Shown in pieces: positions 3,840 through 59,834 of a stretch of 64,000 bases of DNA; the first letter of the stretch is position 1; each line of letters begins with the position of its first letter. The DNA lies in contig NZ_CP007128.1 of assembly GCF_000522985.1 (NCBI RefSeq), positions 1,348,220 through 1,412,219 of the forward strand, given 5' to 3'. The translations under genes were made by a program, and so were the position numbers. Source of the DNA: Gemmatirosa kalamazoonensis. GTDB lineage: Bacteria; Gemmatimonadota; Gemmatimonadetes; Gemmatimonadales; Gemmatimonadaceae. The notes beneath the pieces were generated by a model. The model saw nothing but the letters and a program-made list of their open reading frames with translations, was not told the origin of the DNA and made no database searches.

Positions 3840-5194
3840 GTAAGCGGGATCGAGTCGGGACTCGGGACTCGGGACTCGGGACTCGGGAACTGCTCCCCCC
3901 CCGAGTCCCGAGTCCCGAGTCCCGAGTCCCGATTCGCGGCCTGCGATGGTGGATCATCGGCATGATCTGCCTGGTGACCATCATCAACTACATCGATCGG
4001 CAGACGCTGAGCGTGCTCGCGCCGACCATCCGCGAGCAGTTCGGGATGTCGAACGCGTCGTACTCGCGCGTCGTGACGACGTTCCTCCTCGGCTACACGA
4101 TCTCGCAGGCGCTCTCGGGCAAGGTGCTCGACCGGATCGGCACGCGCGCGGGGTTCCTGCTGTTCGTCAGCGTGTGGACGGTCGCGTCGATGCTGCACGC
4201 GGCGGCGCGGAACGTGGCGCAGCTCTCGGCGTTCCGCTTCGTGCTCGGCATCGGCGAGGCCGGGAACTGGCCGGGCGCGGCGAAGGCGGTGGCGGAGTGG
4301 TTCCCGATCCGCGAGCGCGCGTTCGCGATGTCGATCTTCAACGGCGGCTCGACGATCGGCGCCGTGGTGGCGCCGCCGGTGATCGCGTACGTCGCGCTGC
4401 ACTACGGGTGGCGCTACGCGTTCTTCATCGGCGGGTCGCTGTCGCTCGTGCTGATGACGCTGTGGTTCTTCTTCTTCCGCACGCCGAGCGAGCACCCGCG
4501 GCTGTCGGCGCAGGAGCGCGCGTACATCGCCGCCGGCCAGGTGGAGAGCGGCGACGCGCCGACGGGCGCGCGGCGGCCGTGGCTGTCGCTGTTCCGCCAC
4601 CGGCAGGTGTGGGCGGTCATCGCGGCGCGCTTCTTCACCGACCCGATCTGGTGGTTCCTGATCTCGTGGCTGCCGAACTACCTGAAGTCGGAGCGCGGGT
4701 TCGGGCTGGCGCAGATCGGGCTCCTGGCATGGATCCCGTTCCTGTTCGCCGACGTCGGCAACCTGTCGGGGGGCGCGGCGTCGAGCCTGCTGATCCGCCG
4801 CGGGTGGAGCGTGGACGCGGCGCGGAAGGCGGTGCTGCTCCCGAGCGCGCTGCTGATCCCGTTAGGCGTGGTGACGATCCTCTACACGCACACCGACGCG
4901 ATGGCGATCGCCGGGATCAGCCTCGTGGCGTTCGCGTTCCAGAGCTGGATCGTGAACATCCACACGATCCCGTCGGACACGTTCCCGAAGCAGGACGTCG
5001 GCTCCGTGTTCGGCATCGGCGGCACGGCGGCGGGGATCGCGAGCATGCTCTTCACGCTGCTCGTCGGCTGGGTGGTGGATCGGTTCTCGTACGGGCCGGT
5101 GTACGTGATGGTCGGGGCGATGGCGCCGCTGGCGGCGGTGCTGTTTCTTCTCATCATGCGGCGGATCGAGCGGGTGCGGGAACACGCGATCTGA
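3836..5194 (+). CDS. MFS hexuronate-type transporter (ACS family) with repeat-encoded N-terminus
   Basis: A 452-residue twelve-segment major facilitator. The start is ATG 3836, overlapping the kdgF stop as ATGA. Residues ~5-33 (RDSGLGTRDSGLGTR... then PSPESRVP) are encoded by a family-B inverted repeat, and the first membrane segment starts right after it (GLRWWIIGMICLVTIINYID). No in-frame start codon lies between the element and the first membrane segment, so the element must be translated. The core (NYIDRQTLSVLAPTIREQFG, then the GIGEAGNWPGAAKAVAEWFP motif near residue 140) is typical of the anion:cation symporter group that includes ExuT. The predicted substrate is DEH or another hexuronate in the inner membrane. 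The specific substrate is inferred from the operon. Confidence 0.85.
   Translation: MSKRDRVGTRDSGLGTRELLPPRVPSPESRVPIRGLRWWIIGMICLVTIINYIDRQTLSVLAPTIREQFGMSNASYSRVVTTFLLGYTISQALSGKVLDRIGTRAGFLLFVSVWTVASMLHAAARNVAQLSAFRFVLGIGEAGNWPGAAKAVAEWFPIRERAFAMSIFNGGSTIGAVVAPPVIAYVALHYGWRYAFFIGGSLSLVLMTLWFFFFRTPSEHPRLSAQERAYIAAGQVESGDAPTGARRPWLSLFRHRQVWAVIAARFFTDPIWWFLISWLPNYLKSERGFGLAQIGLLAWIPFLFADVGNLSGGAASSLLIRRGWSVDAARKAVLLPSALLIPLGVVTILYTHTDAMAIAGISLVAFAFQSWIVNIHTIPSDTFPKQDVGSVFGIGGTAAGIASMLFTLLVGWVVDRFSYGPVYVMVGAMAPLAAVLFLLIMRRIERVREHAI
3849..3937. repeat. inverted tandem-unit element, family B (7-bp unit), inside a gene
   Basis: Five CGGGACT units at 3851-3889 and about four reverse-complement units at 3901-3936 flank a short loop AACTGCTCCCCCC. 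The same loop, in opposite orientation, is found in the copy at 59753-59834. The element lies wholly inside the transporter reading frame, directly after its start. Confidence 0.9.
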
Positions 5195-8964: not shown

Positions 8965-8979
8965 TCGCGCCGCTCTGGC

Positions 8980-9118
8980 CTCCACGTACGAGTGTGCGTT
9001 GGACTGAAGAAGGACTGAAGGAGGACTGAAGAAGGAGAACACCAACAAGAAGTGTTGGTCCTTCTTCAGTCCTCCTTCAGTCCTTCTTCAGTCCTATGGA
9101 AACTCGTACGTGGAGTCG
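8980..9118. repeat. inverted tandem-unit element, family C (11-bp unit)
   Basis: Outer ends CTCCACGTACG and CGTACGTGGAG are inverted. Inside are three GGACTGAAGAA/GGACTGAAGGA units, a small central hairpin ACCAACAAGAAGTGTTGGT, then the reverse-complement units. It fills the gap between two convergent genes (8964 and 9132), where it could act as a bidirectional terminator. Confidence 0.9.
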
Positions 9119-9131
9119 TGCAGGCCGCGAC

Positions 9132-18950: not shown

Positions 18951-20368
18951 CAGTGTGACTCCGGTGTGGTGAGAGTGAGGGCGCGCCACCCGCTGCGCGC
19001 CACCTCGCGGCCTAACGCATCCTCGGCGCGCACCCGCCAGCGGAGCGCGCCCGTGCCCGCGCGCTCGACGAGCACCGGCGGCGCGCGGTACGCGGCGACG
19101 TCGCCGGCGACGAGCGCCTCGAACACCGCCGTGCCGTCGGCGCGCTCGACCTCCAGGCGGTAGCGGCGCGCGAGCGGCACGGGCGTCCACGCGAACGCCG
19201 GCAGCGTGCCCGCCTGCGCCGCCGCGCCGAGCGCGGGTTGGAGCAGCAGGAGCGCACGGCCGCCCGCATCGCTCGCCGCCACGGCGCCGCTGCCCACGAC
19301 GTAGCGCAGCGTCGGCAGCGCGAACCCCGCGACGGCGCCGCTCGTCACGACGCCGCTGCCGGCGCGTACCGCGGCGAGATCCGAGCGCGCATCCGGGTCG
19401 GCGGACGCCTCGACGCGGAACAGCACGAGGTACGTGCCGTCGGCATCGCGCGGCAGCGATGCGGGGTCGGGACCGGGCACGCGCACGCGACCGTTAGGCG
19501 GCAGGAACACGTCGAACCGCGCGAGCGGCGCCCACCGCCGCTGCGTGCCGCGCTGCTCGAGCGGAAGCGACGCCTCCGGCAGCAGGTCCGACTCCGACGG
19601 CGGGTCGTCGCCCGGCCGCACGACCTCCCACCGTCCCTGCAGCCGTCCGGTGCCGGTGTACAGCACGTCGGCGAAGAGCGGCGGCGCGCTGCCGTCGGGC
19701 CCACCCGCCACCGCGACGACGGGCGCGTCGCTGTCGAACGCGAGGCGCACGTCGGTGAGCGCGAGCGGCACGCCGGCGCCGCCGGCGGTGAGACGGCACG
19801 TCACGGCGACGAATACGTCGGGGCCGCCGCGGCGATCCACGAAGCGGCGCACGTAGAAGAACGCCGCCGGCCGCCCCGCCTGTGCGGCCTGCCACGCGCG
19901 CCGCGCCACCGACGGCGGGATCGTCATCACGTCCGTCAGGGCACCGGTGCCGCTCGTGCGCGCGAGATCGAACCGCAGCGGCAGCTGGCCGAACAGCGTC
20001 GACGGATCGCAGCGCAGCCCGACGTCCGGACGCGCGTCGATCAGCTCCCCGCACCAGAACGCCTCCGCCGGCACCTGGTCCGCGGACAGCCCACCGAACG
20101 TGAGGAACACCGTCGTCGCCCCCTGGCTCGCGACGTTCACGCCGGTGGGGCTGACGGCGATCTGCGCGTGCGCCGGGGACAGGACGCACAGCAGCGACAG
20201 GAGGAACGCGATGGACAGGATCTTCTGCTCGGTGGTTCGACAGGATGGACAGGATGAACAGGATGAGAACAACACCAACGGCGCTTTCCTCGGTGTTGGT
20301 CTCATCCTGTCCATCCTGTCCATCCTGTCCAAACCGAAGAGCGACAGCTCCTGTCCATCGCGTCGCAT
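18950..20368 (-). CDS. secreted protein with C-terminal Fn3-like domain and repeat-encoded N-terminus
   Basis: 472 residues from ATG 20368, preferred over 20374 because GGGAG sits at better spacing. Residues ~10-48 are coded by a family-G inverted repeat (LDRMDRMDRM..., then a Cys/Ser-rich stretch); a normal signal peptide follows (ILSIAFLLSLLCVLSPAHA). No start codon lies between element and signal, so the extension is presumably translated. The middle part is unrecognised. The C-terminal ~95 residues (FAWTPVPLARRYRLEVERADG ... LRWRVRAEDALGREVA) look like a fibronectin-III-type fold and resemble the end of the membrane protein at 25501-26172. It is followed by copy 3 of the cysteine family (TGATG overlap). 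Confidence 0.65.
   Translation of the reverse strand: MRRDGQELSLFGLDRMDRMDRMRPTPRKAPLVLFSSCSSCPSCRTTEQKILSIAFLLSLLCVLSPAHAQIAVSPTGVNVASQGATTVFLTFGGLSADQVPAEAFWCGELIDARPDVGLRCDPSTLFGQLPLRFDLARTSGTGALTDVMTIPPSVARRAWQAAQAGRPAAFFYVRRFVDRRGGPDVFVAVTCRLTAGGAGVPLALTDVRLAFDSDAPVVAVAGGPDGSAPPLFADVLYTGTGRLQGRWEVVRPGDDPPSESDLLPEASLPLEQRGTQRRWAPLARFDVFLPPNGRVRVPGPDPASLPRDADGTYLVLFRVEASADPDARSDLAAVRAGSGVVTSGAVAGFALPTLRYVVGSGAVAASDAGGRALLLLQPALGAAAQAGTLPAFAWTPVPLARRYRLEVERADGTAVFEALVAGDVAAYRAPPVLVERAGTGALRWRVRAEDALGREVARSGWRALTLTTPESH
20229..20337. repeat. inverted tandem-unit element, family G (9-bp unit), inside a gene
   Basis: Three GGACAGGAT/GAACAGGAT units at 20239-20266 and the inverse ATCCTGTCC units at 20303-20330 flank a centre with AACACCAAC and GTTGGT arms. 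Outer ends CTCGGTGGTT and AAACCGA are also inverted. The centre resembles that of family C at 8980. It is translated as part of the gene ending at 18950. Confidence 0.88.
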
Positions 20369-26853: not shown

Positions 26854-27303
26854 ATGGAACGCACGGCCCGCACGTTCCTTCTCACCCCCCTGTGCCTCGC
26901 CGCGGTGCGCGCGCAGGCGCCCGCCGAGCTGGCGGTGCGCGAGGTGGTACCGGTGCGTGCCGGCGCGCCGGCGCGGCTCTGTCCCGGCGACAACGCGCTG
27001 CGCGTGACGCTCGCCTGGAGCGGCGCGGCGCCCCCGCCGCGTGCCGCGATCGCGACGCTCCGTCTCGCGCTCGTGCTGCCGGGCGGCCCGCCGGCGGGGA
27101 CGCTGATCGCCGAGGGGAGCGCGCCGATGCCGGCGACCGGCGCGACGACGACGTTCACGTTCCTGCACGTGGAGGTCGCGGAGCGGCTGCGCGGGCGGGG
27201 GGCGCAGCTGGTGGTGCGGGTGACGAACGGGGTGGGCGGGGTGGAGCGGGAGCGCGGGGTGTCGGTGGACGCGGTGGCGGACTGGGGGTGCCGGAGGGAC
27301 TGA
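26854..27303 (+). CDS. small secreted beta-rich protein, unknown
   Basis: 149 residues from ATG 26854, with a signal peptide (RTFLLTPLCLAAVRAQA). The mature chain is beta-rich with a Cys near 47 and one at the end (WGCRRD): RLCPGDNALRVTLAWSG, ATLRLALVLPGGPPAG, TFTFLHVEVAERLRG, QLVVRVTNGVGG. It is divergent from the sigma gene (100-base gap). No family recognised. The Ig- or Fn3-like strand pattern would fit the other surface proteins of this block. Confidence 0.6.
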   Translation: MERTARTFLLTPLCLAAVRAQAPAELAVREVVPVRAGAPARLCPGDNALRVTLAWSGAAPPPRAAIATLRLALVLPGGPPAGTLIAEGSAPMPATGATTTFTFLHVEVAERLRGRGAQLVVRVTNGVGGVERERGVSVDAVADWGCRRD

Positions 27304-27330
27304 AAGGGCGCGACGCGCTTACGAGTGACG

Positions 27331-27765
27331 GCGGGACGATCTACGGCGGGACGCCTGACGGCGGGACGCCTGACGGCGGGACGCCTGACGGCGGGACGCC
27401 TGACGGCGGGACGCCTGACGGCGGGACGCCTGACGGCGGGACGCCTGACGGCGGGACGCCTGACGGCGGGACGCCTGACGGCGGGACGCCTGACGGCGGG
27501 ACGCCTGACGGCGGGACGCCTGACGGCGGGACGCCTGACGGCGGGACGCCTGACGGCGGGACGCCTGACGGCGGGACGCCTGACGGCGGGACGCCTGACG
27601 GCGGGACGCCTGACGGCGGGACGCCTGACGGCGGGACGCCTGACGGCGGGACGCCTGACGGCGGGACGCCTGACGGCGGGACGCCTGACGGCGGGACGCC
27701 TGACGGCGGGACGCCTGACGGCGGGACGCCTGACGGCGGGACGCCTGACGGCGGGACGATCGACT
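27331..27765. repeat. 15-bp minisatellite, 27 identical units plus 2 variant end units
   Basis: The unit GCGGGACGCCTGACG repeats 27 times without a change from 27346 to 27750. A variant unit GCGGGACGATCTACG stands before it (27331-27345) and GCGGGACGATCGACT after it. The perfect identity suggests recent expansion or gene-conversion-like homogenisation, so copy number may vary between strains. It forms the left arm of a larger inverted repeat with 27886-27975. Confidence 0.95.
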
Positions 27766-27885
27766 GCGGACGCGGTACCTAGGTCCCAGGGGGCTCCCCC
27801 CCCCTTCGCCCAAGGTGCTACACGCGCAACCGACCGCCGTACCAATCCGACGCGCATCGGATCCCTCCGAACGCGCCCCGATCCC

Positions 27886-27975
27886 GCCGTAGATCGTCCC
27901 GCCGTAGGTCGTCCCGCCGTAGATCGTCCCGCCGTAGATCGTCCCGCAGTACATCGTCCCGCAGTACATCGCCCC
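27886..27975. repeat. opposite arm of the 15-bp inverted repeat, six units
   Basis: Six 15-bp units of GCCGTAGATCGTCCC (last two GCAGTACATCGYCCC). The unit is the exact reverse complement of the variant unit at 27333-27347, not of the expanded 27 units, showing that the left arm changed and expanded after the arms were formed. Confidence 0.92.
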
Positions 27976-28016
27976 GCCGTCCCAGCACTGGTGCGAAACT
28001 TGGATCTTCGCGCCGC

Positions 28017-37897: not shown

Positions 37898-37983
37898 ATT
37901 GAACCGCAGAGGACGCAGAGGGCGCAGAGGAGACCCACAGAAAGTGGTTTCCTCTGCGCCCTCTGCGTCCTCTGCGGTTCAAA
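37898..37983. repeat. inverted tandem-unit element, family A, 34-bp perfect stem
   Basis: TTGAACCGCAGAGGACGCAG... (37898-37931) is exactly complementary to 37950-37983. The apical part (CCAC-AGAAA-GTGG) adds a small hairpin. It lies between the convergent susD-like and ggt genes, fitting a bidirectional terminator, though there is no T-run. Confidence 0.93.
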
Positions 37984-37984
37984 T

Positions 37985-39778
37985 TCAGTAGCCCCGCACC
38001 TCGCCGTCGCGCCGCGGATCCGCCGCGCCCACCCAGCGCCCGCCGACACGCTCGATGACGTGCACGCCGCCGAAGCCCATGTCCATCGGCGACATGATCG
38101 TCTCGAAGCCCATGCGGCGCGCCGCGTCGAGCACCGGCTCGGCGAAGCCCATCTCGACGCGGAGCTGCGCGTTCGACGACGGGATCACGCGCGGCACGCG
38201 CAGCGCGGCGAGCGGGTCGAGGCCGTAGTCGAGCGTGTAGACGATCGTCTCCACGACCGCCGGCGGGATCGCCGCCGAGCCGGGCGAGCCCACGACCTCG
38301 CGCACGCGGCCGTGCTCCAGCACCACCGTCGGCGCGATCGTCGACGACGGCACGCGCCACGGCCCGATCGCGTTCGCGCTCGTCTCGCTCCGCGCGAAGT
38401 TCAGCATCGCGGAGTTGAAGAACGCCCCCGCCGCCCACGTGCCGGTGCCGAACGCGAGGCCGTTCGTGTTCGTCACCGACACCGCGTTGCCGTCGGCGTC
38501 GACGATCGAGAGGTGGGTCGTCTCGGACGATTCGGAACTCGGGACTCGGGACTCGGGACTCGGGGGGGACGAGTTCCGAGTCCCGAGTCCCGAGTCCCGA
38601 ACGGCGGCGACCCGCGCGGGGCCGACGGGCTGGTATTCCGCGCACCCGCTCTCCGGCGCGGCGGCGCGGTCCTCCGCCCACGGGTCGCCGGCGGCGAGGC
38701 GCGCGCGCGGCGTCGTGTCGGCGGCGACGGCGGCACGCTCCGCCGCGTACGCCTTGCTCGTGAGCCCCGCCTGCGGCACCGCCGCCTTGTCCGGATCGCC
38801 CACGTACGCGTCACGGTCCGTCACCGCGGCGCGCATCGCGCCGGCGAGCGCGCGGAACGCGGCGACGTCGCGGTGCGGCGCGCCCAACGTCGTTAGGCGC
38901 ACCGGCTCCAGCAGGTTGAGCGTCTCCAGCACCTGCATGCCGCCCTGCGGCGCCGGCGCGGAGAGCACCACGCGCCCGCGGTACGTCGTGCACAGCGGCC
39001 GCTTCCAGCGCGGCGCGTAGCGCGCGAAGTCGTCGAGCGTCGCCGGGTTGCCGCCCGCGTTCAGCGTCGAGACGATCTCCGCCGCCACGGGCCCGGTGTA
39101 GAAGCCGTCGCGCCCCTGGTCCGCGATGCGGCGCAGCGTCGCCGCGAGCTCCGACTGCACCACGCGGTCGCCGACGCGCACCATGTGGCCGCCGGGGAAG
39201 AAGATGCGCGCCACCGGCGCGGGGCCGAGCACCTTCGTCGAGTCCGACTGCAGCTCGCGGATGAGGATCGAGTTCGCGATGAAGCCGTCGGCGGCGAGGC
39301 GGATCGCCGGGCCGAGCACGGTCGCGCGCGGCAGCTTGCCGTACTTCTCGTGCGCCGCGAGCAGCCCCGCGACCGCCCCGGGGATCGCCACGCCGCGCGC
39401 CGCCGCGATGCGCCCCGTGCCGCGCGACCGGAGCGCGGTGTCGGGGCTCGCGCCGGCCGTGCCGTAGAAGTCGACGTAGTCCGCGCGGTGCGCCTGCTGG
39501 TTCCAGATCATCATCCCGCCGCCGGCGCCGATGCCGCTCATCGACGGCTCGACGACGCCGATCGCGAACGTCGCGGCGACCGCGGCGTCGACGGCGTTGC
39601 CGCCCTGGCGGAGCATCTCGACGCCCGCCTCCGCGGCGTACGCGCTGCCCGCGGCGACCATGCCGCGCTCGGCGACGGCGCGCTTGCCGAGGTCGGGGAC
39701 GGCGATGGGCGAGGGCCTCGGGGTGGTGCAGGCGGCGAGGGCGAGCGCGCCGAGGGGGAGGGAGCGGGCGAGGGACAT
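37985..39778 (-). CDS. ggt: gamma-glutamyltransferase with repeat-encoded linker before the cleavage site
   Basis: A 597-residue Ntn-hydrolase precursor with a lipoprotein signal (ALALAACT). Family blocks: RGMVAAGSAYAAEAGVEMLRQGGNAVDAAVAA, GIGAGGGMMIW, GRVVLSAPAPQGGMQ. The autocleavage site is TTHLSIVDADGNAVSVT, making Thr-420 the predicted catalytic nucleophile. Residues ~394-418, directly before it, are coded by a family-B inverted repeat (VRDSGLGTRN ... PSPESRVPSSE). The enzyme cleaves or transfers gamma-glutamyl groups, for example of glutathione, outside the cytoplasm. In known enzymes this stretch forms the flexible end of the large subunit, so the insert may be tolerated. The M20 peptidase nearby could take released peptides. 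Confidence 0.92.
   Translation of the reverse strand: MSLARSLPLGALALAACTTPRPSPIAVPDLGKRAVAERGMVAAGSAYAAEAGVEMLRQGGNAVDAAVAATFAIGVVEPSMSGIGAGGGMMIWNQQAHRADYVDFYGTAGASPDTALRSRGTGRIAAARGVAIPGAVAGLLAAHEKYGKLPRATVLGPAIRLAADGFIANSILIRELQSDSTKVLGPAPVARIFFPGGHMVRVGDRVVQSELAATLRRIADQGRDGFYTGPVAAEIVSTLNAGGNPATLDDFARYAPRWKRPLCTTYRGRVVLSAPAPQGGMQVLETLNLLEPVRLTTLGAPHRDVAAFRALAGAMRAAVTDRDAYVGDPDKAAVPQAGLTSKAYAAERAAVAADTTPRARLAAGDPWAEDRAAAPESGCAEYQPVGPARVAAVRDSGLGTRNSSPPSPESRVPSSESSETTHLSIVDADGNAVSVTNTNGLAFGTGTWAAGAFFNSAMLNFARSETSANAIGPWRVPSSTIAPTVVLEHGRVREVVGSPGSAAIPPAVVETIVYTLDYGLDPLAALRVPRVIPSSNAQLRVEMGFAEPVLDAARRMGFETIMSPMDMGFGGVHVIERVGGRWVGAADPRRDGEVRGY
38531..38601. repeat. inverted tandem-unit element, family B, inside ggt
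   Basis: Three to four ACTCGGG units on the left (from 38536) and CGAGTCC units on the right (to 38601), with loop GGGGGGGACGAGTTC, the inverse of the family-B loop at 3890. It is in frame within ggt. Confidence 0.9.
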
Positions 39779-44317: not shown

Positions 44318-45058
44318 CTACCCCAGCTCGAACGCCCCCGCCGTCTGCGCGCGGTATCGCCGACTCCACAGCAGCGCCGAGCCGTCGCCGAGCACGATGC
44401 GATAGTCGCCGTGCGACCACGGCTGCAGCTCGCGGATCGCGTCGAGCCGCACGACGTCGGAGCGGTTCACGCGCAGGAACGTCGCCGGATCGAGCCGCTC
44501 CGCCAGCGCGCCGATCGTGCCGCGCACGCGGAACGCGCCGCGCGCCGTGTGCAGCACGACGTAGTTGCGCTCCGCGCGCGCGAGCGCGATCGCGTCCACC
44601 GGCAGCAGATGGGCGCCGCGGTCGTCGTGCACGAGGATGCGCCGCAGGTAGCGGCCCGCCGTCGCGGCGACGAGCGAGGCGAGCGCCGACGGGGCGGCCC
44701 GGCGCGTGCGCGCGCGCTCCACCGCCTCGCGCAGCCGCGCCGGCGCGACGGGCTTCAGCAGGTAGTCGAGCGCGCGCACCTCGAACGCGCGCAGCGCGTG
44801 CTCGTCGTACGCGGTGACGAACACCGTGGCCGGCATGTGGTCGACGCCGACCGCGCCGACGACCTCGAAGCCGTCCATGATCGGCATGCGCACGTCGAGC
44901 AGCACGAGGTCGGGCGCGAGCGCGTCGATCCGCTCGGCCGCCTCGCGTCCGTCCGCCGCCTCGCCGACGACCGCGACGTCGCCCATCGCGCCGAGCAGCC
45001 GCACGAGCCGCCGCCGCGCCGGCGCCTCGTCGTCCGCGACGAGCACCCGGAGCGTCAC
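44318..45058 (-). CDS. LytTR-family response regulator
   Basis: 246 residues from GTG 45058 (GTGA overlap with the kinase stop). The receiver domain has the acidic pair Asp-9/Asp-10, phosphoacceptor Asp-55 (LVLLDVRMPIMDG), the Thr in FVTAYDEHALRAFEV and the Lys in YLLKPVAP. The LytTR DNA-binding domain is at ~140-245 (DAIALARAERNYVVLHTARG, RVNRSDVVRLDAIRELQPW). It is predicted to act as a transcription activator in response to the upstream LytS-type kinase. The TonB receptor gene directly downstream (37-base gap) is the simplest target or operon partner. Confidence 0.93.
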   Translation of the reverse strand: MTLRVLVADDEAPARRRLVRLLGAMGDVAVVGEAADGREAAERIDALAPDLVLLDVRMPIMDGFEVVGAVGVDHMPATVFVTAYDEHALRAFEVRALDYLLKPVAPARLREAVERARTRRAAPSALASLVAATAGRYLRRILVHDDRGAHLLPVDAIALARAERNYVVLHTARGAFRVRGTIGALAERLDPATFLRVNRSDVVRLDAIRELQPWSHGDYRIVLGDGSALLWSRRYRAQTAGAFELG

Positions 45059-46218
45059 GCGAGCGCCTCCGCGCGCAGGTCGTTAGGCACCGCGGCGCGC
45101 GCGGGAATGCGGATCACGACCTCCCAACCGTCGTGCGTGGGGCCGGCACGCATCGATCCGTCGTCGCCGTACAGGAGCTGCAGCCGGCGGGCGGTGGCGG
45201 AGAGGCCGGTGCCGCCGTCGGGCGTCGGGACTCGGGACTCGGGACTCGGCACTCGTGAGGGCGTCGAGTCCCGAGTCCCGAGTCCCGAGTCCCGAACCGT
45301 GAGCACGAGCGTCGCCCCCTCGCGCCGCAATGCCACCGCCACGCGCCCGCGCCCGATGCGCGACACGCCGCCATGGCGCACCGCGTTCTCCACGAGCGGC
45401 TGCAGCACCATCGACGGCACGAGCAGGTCGCCGACGTCGTCGGGCGCGTCGACGGTGACGTCGAGCCGGTCGCCGAAGCGGGCGCGCATCAGCTCGAGGT
45501 ACTGCGCGAGGATCGCCAGCTCGTCGCGCGCCGGCACCTCGTGGGTGTGCGTCGTGCGCAGCGACGTGCGGAGCAGATCCGACAGGCGACCCAGCAGCGC
45601 GTCCGCGGCGTCGACGTCGTCGTACATCGTCGACGAGATGGTGTTCAGCGCGTTGAACAGGAAGTGCGGCTGGAGCTGCAGGCGCAGGTTGCTCAGCTCC
45701 GCGCGCAGCAGGCTGCGCTCGAGCGACGCCGCGCGCCGCTCGCGGTCGCGCTCCGCGAGCACGCTCTCCGCCAGCGCGAGCAGCGCGACCGCCGCGACGA
45801 ACACCAGCACGTCGTTCGCGCCCTCGTATGCGTAGCGCGCCGCGGAGAACGCGTACTCGTACCCGGTCAGCCCGAGCAGCGGGGCGAGCGCGGCGCGCAC
45901 CGCGATCATGAGCGTCGTGTGCACCGCGGAGAGCAGCACGAACCCCGCGAGGTACACGGCGAGCGTGCCGCGTCGCAGCGGACGCGCGAGCGGCCAGCGA
46001 TGCGCGAGCCACGCCATCGCGGCGAGCGGGATCGCGGCGAGCAGCCCGCCCGTGACCTCGTTGAACAGCCGCTCGGCCACGTGCCCCGCGCGCCCGTCGG
46101 CGAGGTCGAGAAAGAGGAAGTACGTCAGCCGCACCACGAACACGCCGACGACGCCGAGCGCGACGCCGCGGCGCAGGGCGCGGGTGCTCAGCAGGCTGCG
46201 GGATCCGGCGGCGCTCAT
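45055..46218 (-). CDS. LytS/YehU-type sensor histidine kinase with repeat inserted at the ATP-lid motif
   Basis: 387 residues from ATG 46218. Four membrane segments lie in the first ~150 residues, followed by a coiled coil and the His_kinase (PF06580) domain with LQPHFLFNALNTISS (His-185), and MVLQPLVENAVRHG as the N-box. Next comes VLTVRDSGLGTRDS, then PSPESRVPTPDGGTGLSATARRLQLLYG. Residues ~307-331 are coded by a family-B inverted repeat, and the DSGLG part of the repeat falls where the DxGxG (G1) motif belongs; GTGLSATARRL is the G2 part. Thus the repeat may supply a working ATP-binding motif. It is coupled to the LytTR regulator. Confidence 0.9.
   Translation of the reverse strand: MSAAGSRSLLSTRALRRGVALGVVGVFVVRLTYFLFLDLADGRAGHVAERLFNEVTGGLLAAIPLAAMAWLAHRWPLARPLRRGTLAVYLAGFVLLSAVHTTLMIAVRAALAPLLGLTGYEYAFSAARYAYEGANDVLVFVAAVALLALAESVLAERDRERRAASLERSLLRAELSNLRLQLQPHFLFNALNTISSTMYDDVDAADALLGRLSDLLRTSLRTTHTHEVPARDELAILAQYLELMRARFGDRLDVTVDAPDDVGDLLVPSMVLQPLVENAVRHGGVSRIGRGRVAVALRREGATLVLTVRDSGLGTRDSTPSRVPSPESRVPTPDGGTGLSATARRLQLLYGDDGSMRAGPTHDGWEVVIRIPARAAVPNDLRAEALA
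45224..45297. repeat. inverted tandem-unit element, family B, inside a histidine kinase gene
   Basis: Four GGGACTC units (45227-45248) and the inverse GAGTCCC units (45266-45294) around a diverged loop (GGCACTCGTGAGGGCGTCG). It is translated in frame in the ATPase domain. Confidence 0.9.
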
Positions 46219-57173: not shown

Positions 57174-57223
57174 GCGCGCAATCTGCGCGGGCCATTGTGT
57201 CCGCGGCACCGGCGTGGCGCCGC

Positions 57224-57319
57224 GCACGACTCCACGTACGTGTCTCTGGAGGACTGAAGAAGGACTGAAGAGGGACTGTCCTCCTTCAGTCCTGCCGAAA
57301 CTCGTACGTGGAGTCGTGC
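57224..57319. repeat. inverted tandem-unit element, family C
   Basis: GCACGACTCCACGTACGTG and CTCGTACGTGGAGTCGTGC ends enclose two GGACTGAAGAA-type units on the left and CTTCAGTCC units on the right. It lacks the central loop present at 8980 and 58958. It runs over the last ~11 codons of the ABC-F gene ending at 57286. Confidence 0.9.
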
Positions 57320-58938
57320 CCGTGCACACCGAGCCGCCGCTCCACGCCGACCGCGTCGAGGAACGTCGCGTCGTGCGACACCACGACGAGCGCGCCGTCG
57401 TACGCGGCGAGCATCTCCTCCACCGCGCGCAGCGAGTCGAGGTCGAGATGGTTCGTCGGCTCGTCGACGAGCAGCAGCTGCGGCGGACGCGCGGCGTGCA
57501 GGGCGATGGCGAGCGCGGCGCGCACGCGCTCGCCGCCGCTCAGCGCGCGCACCGGCGTGAGCGCCGCGTCGCCGCGGAACAGGTGCCGTGCGAGCGCGTG
57601 CCGACTCGCCTCCTCCTCGAGCTCGGGGTTCGCCTCGCGCATCGCGTCGAGCACGGTGAGCTCGGTCGGCAGTCGCGACCCCGCATGCTGGTCCACGTAC
57701 GCCACGCGGTCGCGCTCGACGCCGAGCCGCACGGTGCCGGCGTCCGGCGCGAGCTCGCCGGCGAGCAGGCGCAGCAGCGTCGTCTTCCCGCTTCCGTTAG
57801 GCCCGACGATCGCGAGGCGCTCCGGCCCCACCACGGCGAGCGACACGCCGTCGAGCAGCGGCCGGCCGGCTCCTGGATGCGCGTAGCGCAGCGCGGTCGC
57901 CTCGACGACGAGCTTGCCGTCACGCAAGCCCGCGGGCGGCAGGCCGAGCGCCAGGCGCTCCCGGATCTCCACGCGGGTTCGCGCCCGCTCCACGCGCTCG
58001 CGCGCCTCGGCGATCGCGCGCTCGCCCGCCGCGTCGAGCCGCCCCGAGGTGCGCTCGCTCGTCTCGCGACGGATGCCGAGCATCACCTTCGGCATGTTCG
58101 CCGTCGCCGCGTCCTTGCGCCCACGGCTCGCGCGCCGCTGCTGCCGCTCCCGCGTCTCGCGCGCGGTGCGCTCGGCCCCCCGCAGCGAGCGGCGGGCGTC
58201 GGAGAGCGCGCGCTCGGCGGCGGCGGCTTCCGCGGCGCGCTGCGCGTCGTAGAGCGCCCACCCGCCGCCGTAGACGCGGGCGCCTAACGGTCCGAGCTCC
58301 ACGATCCGGTCGACCCGCTCGAGCAGCGCGCGGTCGTGCGTGACCACGACGAGGCCCCCGCTCCACGAGTCCACGAACGCGTACAGCGCGTCGCGGCTCG
58401 GTGCGTCGAGGTCGTTCGTCGGCTCGTCGAGCGCGAGCAGCTCGGCGCCGGCCAGCAGCAGCGCGGCGAACGCGAGGCGCGTCGTCTCGCCGCCGCTCAG
58501 CGTCGCCACGGCGCGCCGCGCGTCGAGGCGCGCGAGCCCGAACCGGTCGAGCGCGGCCGCGATCTCGTCGTGCAGCGTCCACCGTCCGCCGACGTGGTCG
58601 AGGTCCGCCGCCGTTCCCTCGCCGGCGAGCACGCGGTCGAGCGCGTCGAGCACGTCGGCGACGCCGAGCGCGTGTGCGACCGTCGCATCCGCGGGGAGCG
58701 CGCGTCCCGGGTGCTGCGGCAGGTACCCCACGCGCGCGCGACGCTCGACGTGCCCGCGCGTCGGACGCAGCTCGCCGACGAGCAGCCGCAGCAGCGTGCT
58801 CTTGCCGACGCCGTTCGCGCCGACGAGCCCCGTGCGCTCGCGTCCGAAACCGAGCGTCACGCCGTCGAACAGCGTGCGGCCATCGGGGAGCGTGTAGGCG
58901 AGATCTTCGGCGGAGAGCAGGGTGGTGGAGGAAGGCAC
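57286..58938 (-). CDS. ABC-F family ATPase (copy 1)
   Basis: 550 residues from ATG 58938 with two ABC domains: GANGVGKSTLL / LSGGETTRLAFAALL / LLALDEPTNDLD in the first, and GPNGSGKTTLL / LSGGERVRAALAIAL / LLLVDEPTNHLD in the second, joined by an Arg/Glu-rich helical linker (~245-320). There is no transmembrane part. ABC-F proteins act on the ribosome in translation or antibiotic resistance. The last ~10 residues (HDSTYEFRQD) and the TGA stop are supplied by the family-C repeat, so the native end was probably changed. Confidence 0.92.
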   Translation of the reverse strand: MPSSTTLLSAEDLAYTLPDGRTLFDGVTLGFGRERTGLVGANGVGKSTLLRLLVGELRPTRGHVERRARVGYLPQHPGRALPADATVAHALGVADVLDALDRVLAGEGTAADLDHVGGRWTLHDEIAAALDRFGLARLDARRAVATLSGGETTRLAFAALLLAGAELLALDEPTNDLDAPSRDALYAFVDSWSGGLVVVTHDRALLERVDRIVELGPLGARVYGGGWALYDAQRAAEAAAAERALSDARRSLRGAERTARETRERQQRRASRGRKDAATANMPKVMLGIRRETSERTSGRLDAAGERAIAEARERVERARTRVEIRERLALGLPPAGLRDGKLVVEATALRYAHPGAGRPLLDGVSLAVVGPERLAIVGPNGSGKTTLLRLLAGELAPDAGTVRLGVERDRVAYVDQHAGSRLPTELTVLDAMREANPELEEEASRHALARHLFRGDAALTPVRALSGGERVRAALAIALHAARPPQLLLVDEPTNHLDLDSLRAVEEMLAAYDGALVVVSHDATFLDAVGVERRLGVHGHDSTYEFRQD

Positions 58939-58957
58939 GGGAAGGTGCGCTGGTTCA

Positions 58958-59099
58958 GGACTCCACGTACGTGTTTCTGGAGGACTGAAGAAGGACTGAA
59001 GGAGGACTGAAGAAGGAGAACAACGAAAACTGGTGTCGGTCCTTCTTCAGTCTCTCTTCAGTCCTTCTTCAGTCCTACGAGAGCTCGTACGTGGAGTCC
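58958..59099. repeat. inverted tandem-unit element, family C
   Basis: GGACTCCACGTACGTG and CTCGTACGTGGAGTCC ends. Three GGACTGAAGAA-type units, the centre GAGAACAACGAAAACTGGTG and three inverse units lie inside. It is 20 bases upstream of the ABC-F start and overlaps the last ~17 codons of the phosphatase gene. Confidence 0.92.
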
Positions 59100-59742
59100 C
59101 GGACAGCATCTCCGGCAACCGCGTCATGTCGTCGAACGTCGTAGCGCCCAGCTCGGCCAGCGTGCCTGGATCCGTGCGCGCCGCGAAGCCGAGCACCGTC
59201 ATCCCGGCCGCGACGGCCGCCCGCACGCCGAGCGGCGAGTCCTCGATCACGACGCATCGTGACGGATCGGCGCCCATCGCGCGCGCGGCGTGGAGGAACA
59301 GATCCGGGTGGGGCTTGCCGCGCGCAACGTCCTGCGCGCTGAAGATGCGCCCGTCGAATCGCGGCAGCAGGCCGGTGAGGCCGAGCGACAGGCGGATCTT
59401 CCGATGCTCGCCGCTCGACGCGACGCACGTCGGCAGCGACGCGTCCGCGATCGCGTCGAGCGCCGCCTCGATCCCCGGCACGGCGTGCAGCTCCGCGCGG
59501 AACGCGTCGGCCGTGCGATTGCGGAACGCGTCCACGAAACCGTCGGGCACCGGCCGCCCGAGCCGCTCGCCGACGATCGCCATGCACGACGCCATCGACC
59601 GCCCGACGTAGTCGCGCATCGTCTCCTCGAGCGTCGTCGCGAGCCCGAGCTCGTTCAGCAGATCGGTGAAGACACGGTTCGCGATCGGCTCGCTGTCCAC
59701 GAGCACGCCGTCGCAGTCGAAGATGACGAGGTCCCAGCGCAT
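59047..59742 (-). CDS. HAD-superfamily phosphatase (beta-phosphoglucomutase-like) with repeat-encoded tail
   Basis: 231 residues from ATG 59742. HAD motif I is FDCDGVLVDSEP (Asp-9, Asp-11), motif II is in VASSGEH, the Lys is in GKPHPDLFL and motif IV is VIEDSPLGVRAA. A helical cap domain follows motif I (DLLNELGLATTLEETMRDYVG). This subgroup acts on sugar phosphates. The family fold is complete by about TRLPEMLSG; the last ~17 residues (TPRTSSRRTEEGLKRD) and the stop come from the family-C repeat. It is divergent from the ABC-F gene at 59845, with a family-B repeat in the shared promoter gap. Confidence 0.9.
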   Translation of the reverse strand: MRWDLVIFDCDGVLVDSEPIANRVFTDLLNELGLATTLEETMRDYVGRSMASCMAIVGERLGRPVPDGFVDAFRNRTADAFRAELHAVPGIEAALDAIADASLPTCVASSGEHRKIRLSLGLTGLLPRFDGRIFSAQDVARGKPHPDLFLHAARAMGADPSRCVVIEDSPLGVRAAVAAGMTVLGFAARTDPGTLAELGATTFDDMTRLPEMLSGTPRTSSRRTEEGLKRD

Positions 59743-59752
59743 GACGACAAGG

Positions 59753-59834
59753 TATCGGGACTCGGGACTCGGGACTCGGGACTCGTGGGGGAGCAGTTCC
59801 CGAGTCCCGAGTCCCGAGTCCCGAGTCCCGATAG
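59753..59834. repeat. inverted tandem-unit element, family B, in a divergent promoter gap
   Basis: TATCGGGACTCGGGACTCGG (59753) on the left pairs with CGAGTCCCGAGTCCCGATA on the right (to 59834). Loop GGGGGAGCAGTTCC is the reverse complement of the 3849 copy's loop, so this copy lies in the opposite orientation. It occupies most of the 102 bases between divergent start codons. Confidence 0.92.

Follow-up and report, generated by a model that had tools for sequence, protein, structure and literature searches.

How can a repeat element come to lie in frame across the ATP-binding motif of a histidine kinase gene, and where did the motif that is now read there come from? The gene lies in a 64,000-nucleotide stretch of the Gemmatirosa kalamazoonensis genome, referred to here as the window, which is part of a 5,311,527-base contig in a 7.48-Mb genome. 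It begins with ATG, occupies positions 45058-46218 on the minus strand and encodes a LytS-type sensor histidine kinase of 387 amino acids with membrane helices. Both of its kinase domains exceed their Pfam cut-offs, His_kinase (PF06580) with 79.9 bits versus 25.2 and HATPase_c (PF02518) with 27.8 bits versus 26.4. Directly downstream, at 44318-45058 on the minus strand, lies the partner response regulator with Response_reg and LytTR domains. The kinase shares with other LytS-type kinases its architecture, an H box (PHFLFN), an N box (ENAVRHG), a G2 box and the adjoining LytTR regulator, but differs from them in having its G1 box, and the greater part of its ATP lid, encoded by repeat DNA.

The repeat is a hairpin built from GGGACTC heptamers that sits in frame in the kinase gene at 45225-45295 on the minus strand. 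A repeat at 45224-45297 had been proposed in the first-pass annotation of this DNA; the element is real, and its span is corrected here to the narrower limits. Its 71 nt comprise two 31-nt arms, which are 97% complementary, and a 9-nt loop, and as single-stranded DNA the element folds at -42.2 kcal/mol (z = -9.7 versus shuffles). Each arm contains four G3 runs, which from the sequence would permit a G-quadruplex. An Rfam search of the window returned no matches. The element encodes residues 309-331 (RDSGLGTRDSTPSRVPSPESRVP) along with the third base of the V308 codon and the first base of the T332 codon, and in the protein it takes up the final part of the last beta strand and most of the lid over the ATP site. 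The single G1 (DxGxG) box in the kinase, CGG GAC TCG GGA CTC GGG (R309 D310 S311 G312 L313 G314), is at 45277-45294 on the minus strand and agrees base for base with the opening units of the left arm of the element. The native G2 box and the residues following it, GTGLSATARRLQ, are encoded at 45178-45213 on the minus strand and are conserved in orthologues. G2 starts at G336 (GTGLSATARRL), 26 residues past D310, and no second DxGxG is present between the N box and G2.

The ancestral state of this site was approached by aligning the kinase with 12 orthologues from 12 other genomes. V308, D310 and G312 are invariant in this alignment, and the column of residue 309 is highly variable (H, Y, F, Q, R, W, E, D). 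All invariant columns of the 13 sequences are kept in the kinase, those of the H and N boxes and of G2 included. The orthologue G1 boxes read DDGPG, DDGAG, DDGDG, DDGPP or similar, and every one of these proteins is without a second box. The first-pass annotation held that the DSGLG of the element stands in for the native G1 box, which is borne out, the native box being absent elsewhere in the gene. It left undecided whether the element replaces or duplicates that box, and the orthologues, with a single box in the same position, show that it is replacement and not duplication. The orthologues were also searched for a native G1 box lying intact and apart from the repeat, and there is none; the one box of the close orthologues is at this position.

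Lengths and codons provide further evidence for the loss of native sequence. The interval from V308 to G336 spans 27 residues in the kinase, 23 of them wholly element-coded and about four native, and the interval from V308 to the G2 glycine is 16 residues in three relatives (L002, L004 and L062) and 24 in a fourth (L061). With only about four lid residues from outside the element, the lengths in the relatives indicate that at least 12 native codons were lost, the native G1 box among them. The comparison covers other genera, with L061 (from genome G051) the closest relative at 65% identity, and it is from these that we infer the pre-insertion sequence. The lid of L061, YDDGPPPNAAPAGDHALAGDATGG, is itself expanded to 24 residues, contains no clear hairpin and has lost the second glycine of G1 (DDGPP). 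G133 is a relative in which the heptamer unit occurs a few times; its orthologue is truncated by a contig end before the G1 box. Codons ending in A or T make up 6 of the 23 wholly element-coded codons, with the boundary codon GTT308 in addition, versus 15 of 363 elsewhere in the kinase. GTT308 is the sole GTT among the 36 GTT/GTG/GTC valine codons of the gene, and the G312 codon is GGA. This codon signature therefore places the edge of the element upstream of D310, and it argues that the bases from the third position of V308 onward are likely element-derived. The exact edge cannot be fixed by sequence alone because native bases that equal the repeat are invisible.

The appearance of DSGLG in the translated repeat is less surprising than it may seem. 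Since 7 shares no factor with 3, the repeat yields one cyclic heptapeptide, RDSGLGT, in whichever of its three frames it is read, and DSGLG is therefore expected at any in-frame copy. DSGLG is unremarkable in itself; what is special is how exactly it lines up with the aspartate and glycine conserved in the kinase. When left edges were scanned from V308 to the end of G1, 2 of the 18 yielded V-x-D-S-G-L-G in register, including the observed edge, which also accounts for the T of GTT and for the CGG codon. As a G1 box, DSGLG appears to be ordinary. An alignment-based contig search, also used for the structure model, provided the G1 statistics from 80 loci, distant kinases only. Among the 79 LytS-type kinases with a machine-readable box, position 2 is mostly D or N but also T, S or A, and position 4 is most often P with L also found. 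Natural variants include DSGPG (L027), DNGLG (L071) and DDGLG (L267/L275), and the spacing from the aspartate to G2 ranges from 11 to 35, which takes in the 26 of the window kinase. In terms of structure, an AF2 model of the kinase (mean pLDDT of 87.7) ends strand 303-310 at D310, renders residues from about 311 to 336 as a loop of low confidence and has a helix from 337. The D-x-G of D310-S-G312-L-G sits accordingly at the end of the strand preceding the lid. The best PDB matches are to the GanS kinase domain, for which the profile alignment sets V-R-D-N-G-V-G at the place of G1.

The kinase element is one of many copies. A two-unit query, CGGGACTCGGGACTCG, has 309 + 257 matches in the genome and none when reversed as a control, and among 178 other genomes of the family the GGGACTC unit has one to eight matches in five and none in the rest. 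We read 73 copies, drawn from 60 regions and the window, and their total lengths are mostly about 70-110 nt. Within the window, one further copy (38531-38601, minus strand) lies in frame in a gene that we named gamma-glutamyltranspeptidase-like from its sequence, between two conserved-looking blocks, and two others (3855-3932 and 59755-59831) are apparently intergenic. About 18 of the 73 are in frame inside conserved genes of normal coding composition, whose products we take, from reading their sequences, to be MutS, DnaA, IleRS, LipB, a MetH/MTHFR fusion, aldehyde dehydrogenase, a helicase and others. Some copies have their arms split by about 60-470 nt (L114 at 1539-2122, and L090, L102, L104, L112, L125, L126, L133, L135 and L136) and look as if they flank cargo or a second palindrome.

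At 14 in-gene sites, the orthologue loop was longer than the non-element residues of the corresponding Gemmatirosa loop in 40 of 40 pairs. In other indel loops of the same proteins, which served as a control and themselves lean slightly toward longer orthologue loops, the orthologue loop was longer in 128 of 205 pairs (62%; Fisher p about 1e-7 for the two sets, with pairs that are not independent). The elements therefore substitute for loop codons. The route of this replacement could be deletion-coupled insertion, later trimming or the overwriting of an older repeat. By our reading of the alignments, the kinase is the one examined case in which the replaced stretch holds a recognized catalytic motif. 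Candidates for a second kinase with an element in its lid were rejected, as the weak matches that we read (L203-L206, L083-L142) lie outside lids; in L083, a hybrid kinase, the copy sits in the linker that follows the ATPase domain.

The explanation that we favor, and hold to be very probable, is that the element replaced native lid codons together with the G1 box and that the repeat restored the aspartate and glycine in register. It builds on the position of the element, the identity of its bases with those of G1, the single G1 box, the loss of native codons and the like replacement at further copies within genes. A GGGACTC hairpin repeat would have entered the region of the kinase ATP lid in the Gemmatirosa lineage and displaced native lid codons, the native G1 box (x-D-D-G-P/A-x) among them. 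Its left edge would fall between bases 2 and 3 of the V308 codon, in the last strand, and in the frame that reads R-D-S-G-L-G from there, such that the repeat itself would have put the conserved aspartate and glycine back in register. The remaining repeat peptide (TRDSTPSRVPSPESRVP) would make the ATP lid long and probably flexible; this segment already differs in length from one relative to another. Placements out of register were presumably removed by selection, and the kinase, judged by its sequence, likely retains ATP binding and phosphorylation. To explain the register, it is enough that the element landed at random and that selection then acted against broken kinases. The earlier suggestion of a neutral accident that left the D and the Gs in place is compatible with these results provided that selection discarded the motif-breaking placements. 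The competing suggestion, that the site was selected for its match to the native codons, found little support: in ten relatives the in-phase match of the G1 codons to the repeat is only 7-11 of 18 bases, and in L061 it is 7 of 18, under most windows of that gene.

In one alternative explanation, native codons such as CGGGAC or CGGGACTCGGG-like ones (RDSG) offered microhomology, the element joined there, and the aspartate and perhaps the first glycine are native. A left edge seven bases further in would also yield DSGLG, with a native D; DSG boxes occur naturally, as in L027; and in 3 of 10 relatives the G1 codons rank among the stretches of their gene that fit the repeat better. However, this route requires a chance identity between the element and seven native bases (T-CGG-GAC), which include the only GTT of the gene and an arginine at a residue that varies widely. 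With the poor codon match in L061, the closest relative, added to this, we regard microhomology as unlikely. Slightly less credit goes to the idea that the kinase is dead, its ATP site destroyed by the element and its gene drifting, with the D and Gs there by coincidence. The insertion does strike the core of the nucleotide site, but the frame is open, the invariant alignment columns are all retained, the adjoining gene for the partner LytTR regulator is intact, and the register is the one that preserves D-x-G. Short tandem arrays are classical substrates for slippage, and the least likely of these explanations, to which we give very little weight, makes the element a switch. Slippage by one unit (7 nt) would shift the frame and cause phase variation of the kinase, and changes of 21 nt would keep the frame and add RDSGLGT. 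Arm length does vary widely among copies, from 30 to over 170 nt, yet the conserved in-gene copies that we read are all in frame, and a hairpin with a non-repeat center is atypical of switch arrays.

Several known repeat systems invite comparison. Rickettsia palindromic elements (RPEs) are palindromes found in frame within unrelated protein genes (PMC10969869). Compared by description rather than by sequence, the element is likewise palindromic, and about 18 of its copies lie in frame within conserved genes, but RPEs are about 150 bp long with a conserved peptide of their own, whereas the arms of the element are tandem heptamers in an unrelated phylum. Among open papers, none that we found reports an RPE that contributes residues of a catalytic motif. 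Intragenic GTAG/CGTC REPs are short palindromes within genes, many of them for replication/repair and tRNA synthetases, and recB of two Xanthomonas species carries different REPs at about the same place (PMC3733652), which resembles the shared sites described below. The element differs from GTAG REPs in its ends, which are T-CGGG...CCCG-A, mostly (G/A)T-CGGGACTC, and not GTAG, as well as in its arms of heptamer arrays. A whole-genome search for a Y1 (RAYT-type) transposase (PF01797) gave no match, and a control search finds PF01797 in 5 of 14 well-known genomes. A RAYT-mobilized REP is ruled out by the missing Y1 transposase and the missing GTAG ends. The ends of 55 full copies show no excess of direct repeats versus shuffled pairs, that is, no target-site duplication of the kind that marks a MITE of a DDE transposon. 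A further likeness is to heptamer arrays: those of Xanthomonas (GGGAATC) are G-rich and often form convergent inverted pairs, at 70-75 pairs per genome, the repeat unit of Nostoc is GGGGA(C/T)T, and both are over-represented intergenically and have been studied for G-quadruplex formation (PMC4692102). GGGAATC is one base from GGGACTC, and both occur as tandem G3 heptamers in convergent pairs; the intergenic bias of the Xanthomonas arrays contrasts with the about 18 in-frame copies in conserved genes here. On this comparison, the element resembles the Xanthomonas heptamers in build, and RPEs and intragenic REPs in habit.

Hairpins of the same architecture with other units were also observed. 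Two genomes of another genus, G015 and G173, carry TCGACGC hairpins in MutS (L209, 935-998), in aldehyde dehydrogenase-like genes (L210, 910-988; L211, 846-927) and in the linker of an FAD/OYE-like gene (L212, 809-872), and these occupy the same loops of three genes as the GGGACTC element of Gemmatirosa. The GGGACTC unit is absent from G015 and G173, and the TCGACGC unit is absent from Gemmatirosa. The shared loops may have been hit independently, or the unit may have turned over while its sites stayed fixed. In L204 (1428-1539; G000:C4, about 820,230-820,340), a GGGACTC hairpin lies between the two arms of a hairpin from a different family (TGAACCGCAGAGG ... CCTCTGCGGTTCA) and seems to have inserted, nested, into the loop of that second repeat. 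The window itself holds three further hairpin families with the GGGACTC architecture and other units: GGACTGAAGAA-type hairpins armed with tandem repeats at 8965-9130, 57214-57322 and 58953-59104, and hairpins with short tandem-repeat arms of the GGACAGGAT type at 20236-20332 and of the CGCAGAGGA type at 37899-37982 and 446-481. Additionally, positions 27201-27986 hold a long array of about 30 copies of a 15-nt repeat and, after it, a second array, inverted in part, whose 15-nt unit is related.

Repeats inserted in frame are usually seen as decorations that surface loops tolerate. In the kinase, the decoration reaches an active-site motif and provides that motif. To our knowledge, which covers open papers only, an in-frame palindrome that supplies a catalytic motif has not been reported. 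The replacement of loop codons by hairpins at conserved sites, rather than their mere addition, constrains how such hairpins spread. Automated annotation would label this kinase normal and overlook that its G1 box is not ancestral. As read from its sequence, the locus would offer a concrete, testable example of repeat DNA turning into functional protein sequence. We consider it rather probable that a dispersed non-coding hairpin has here been co-opted as the catalytic ATP motif, aspartate and glycine, of a working signaling enzyme, and, more broadly, that lineage-specific heptamer hairpins repeatedly overwrite the same variable loops across genera.
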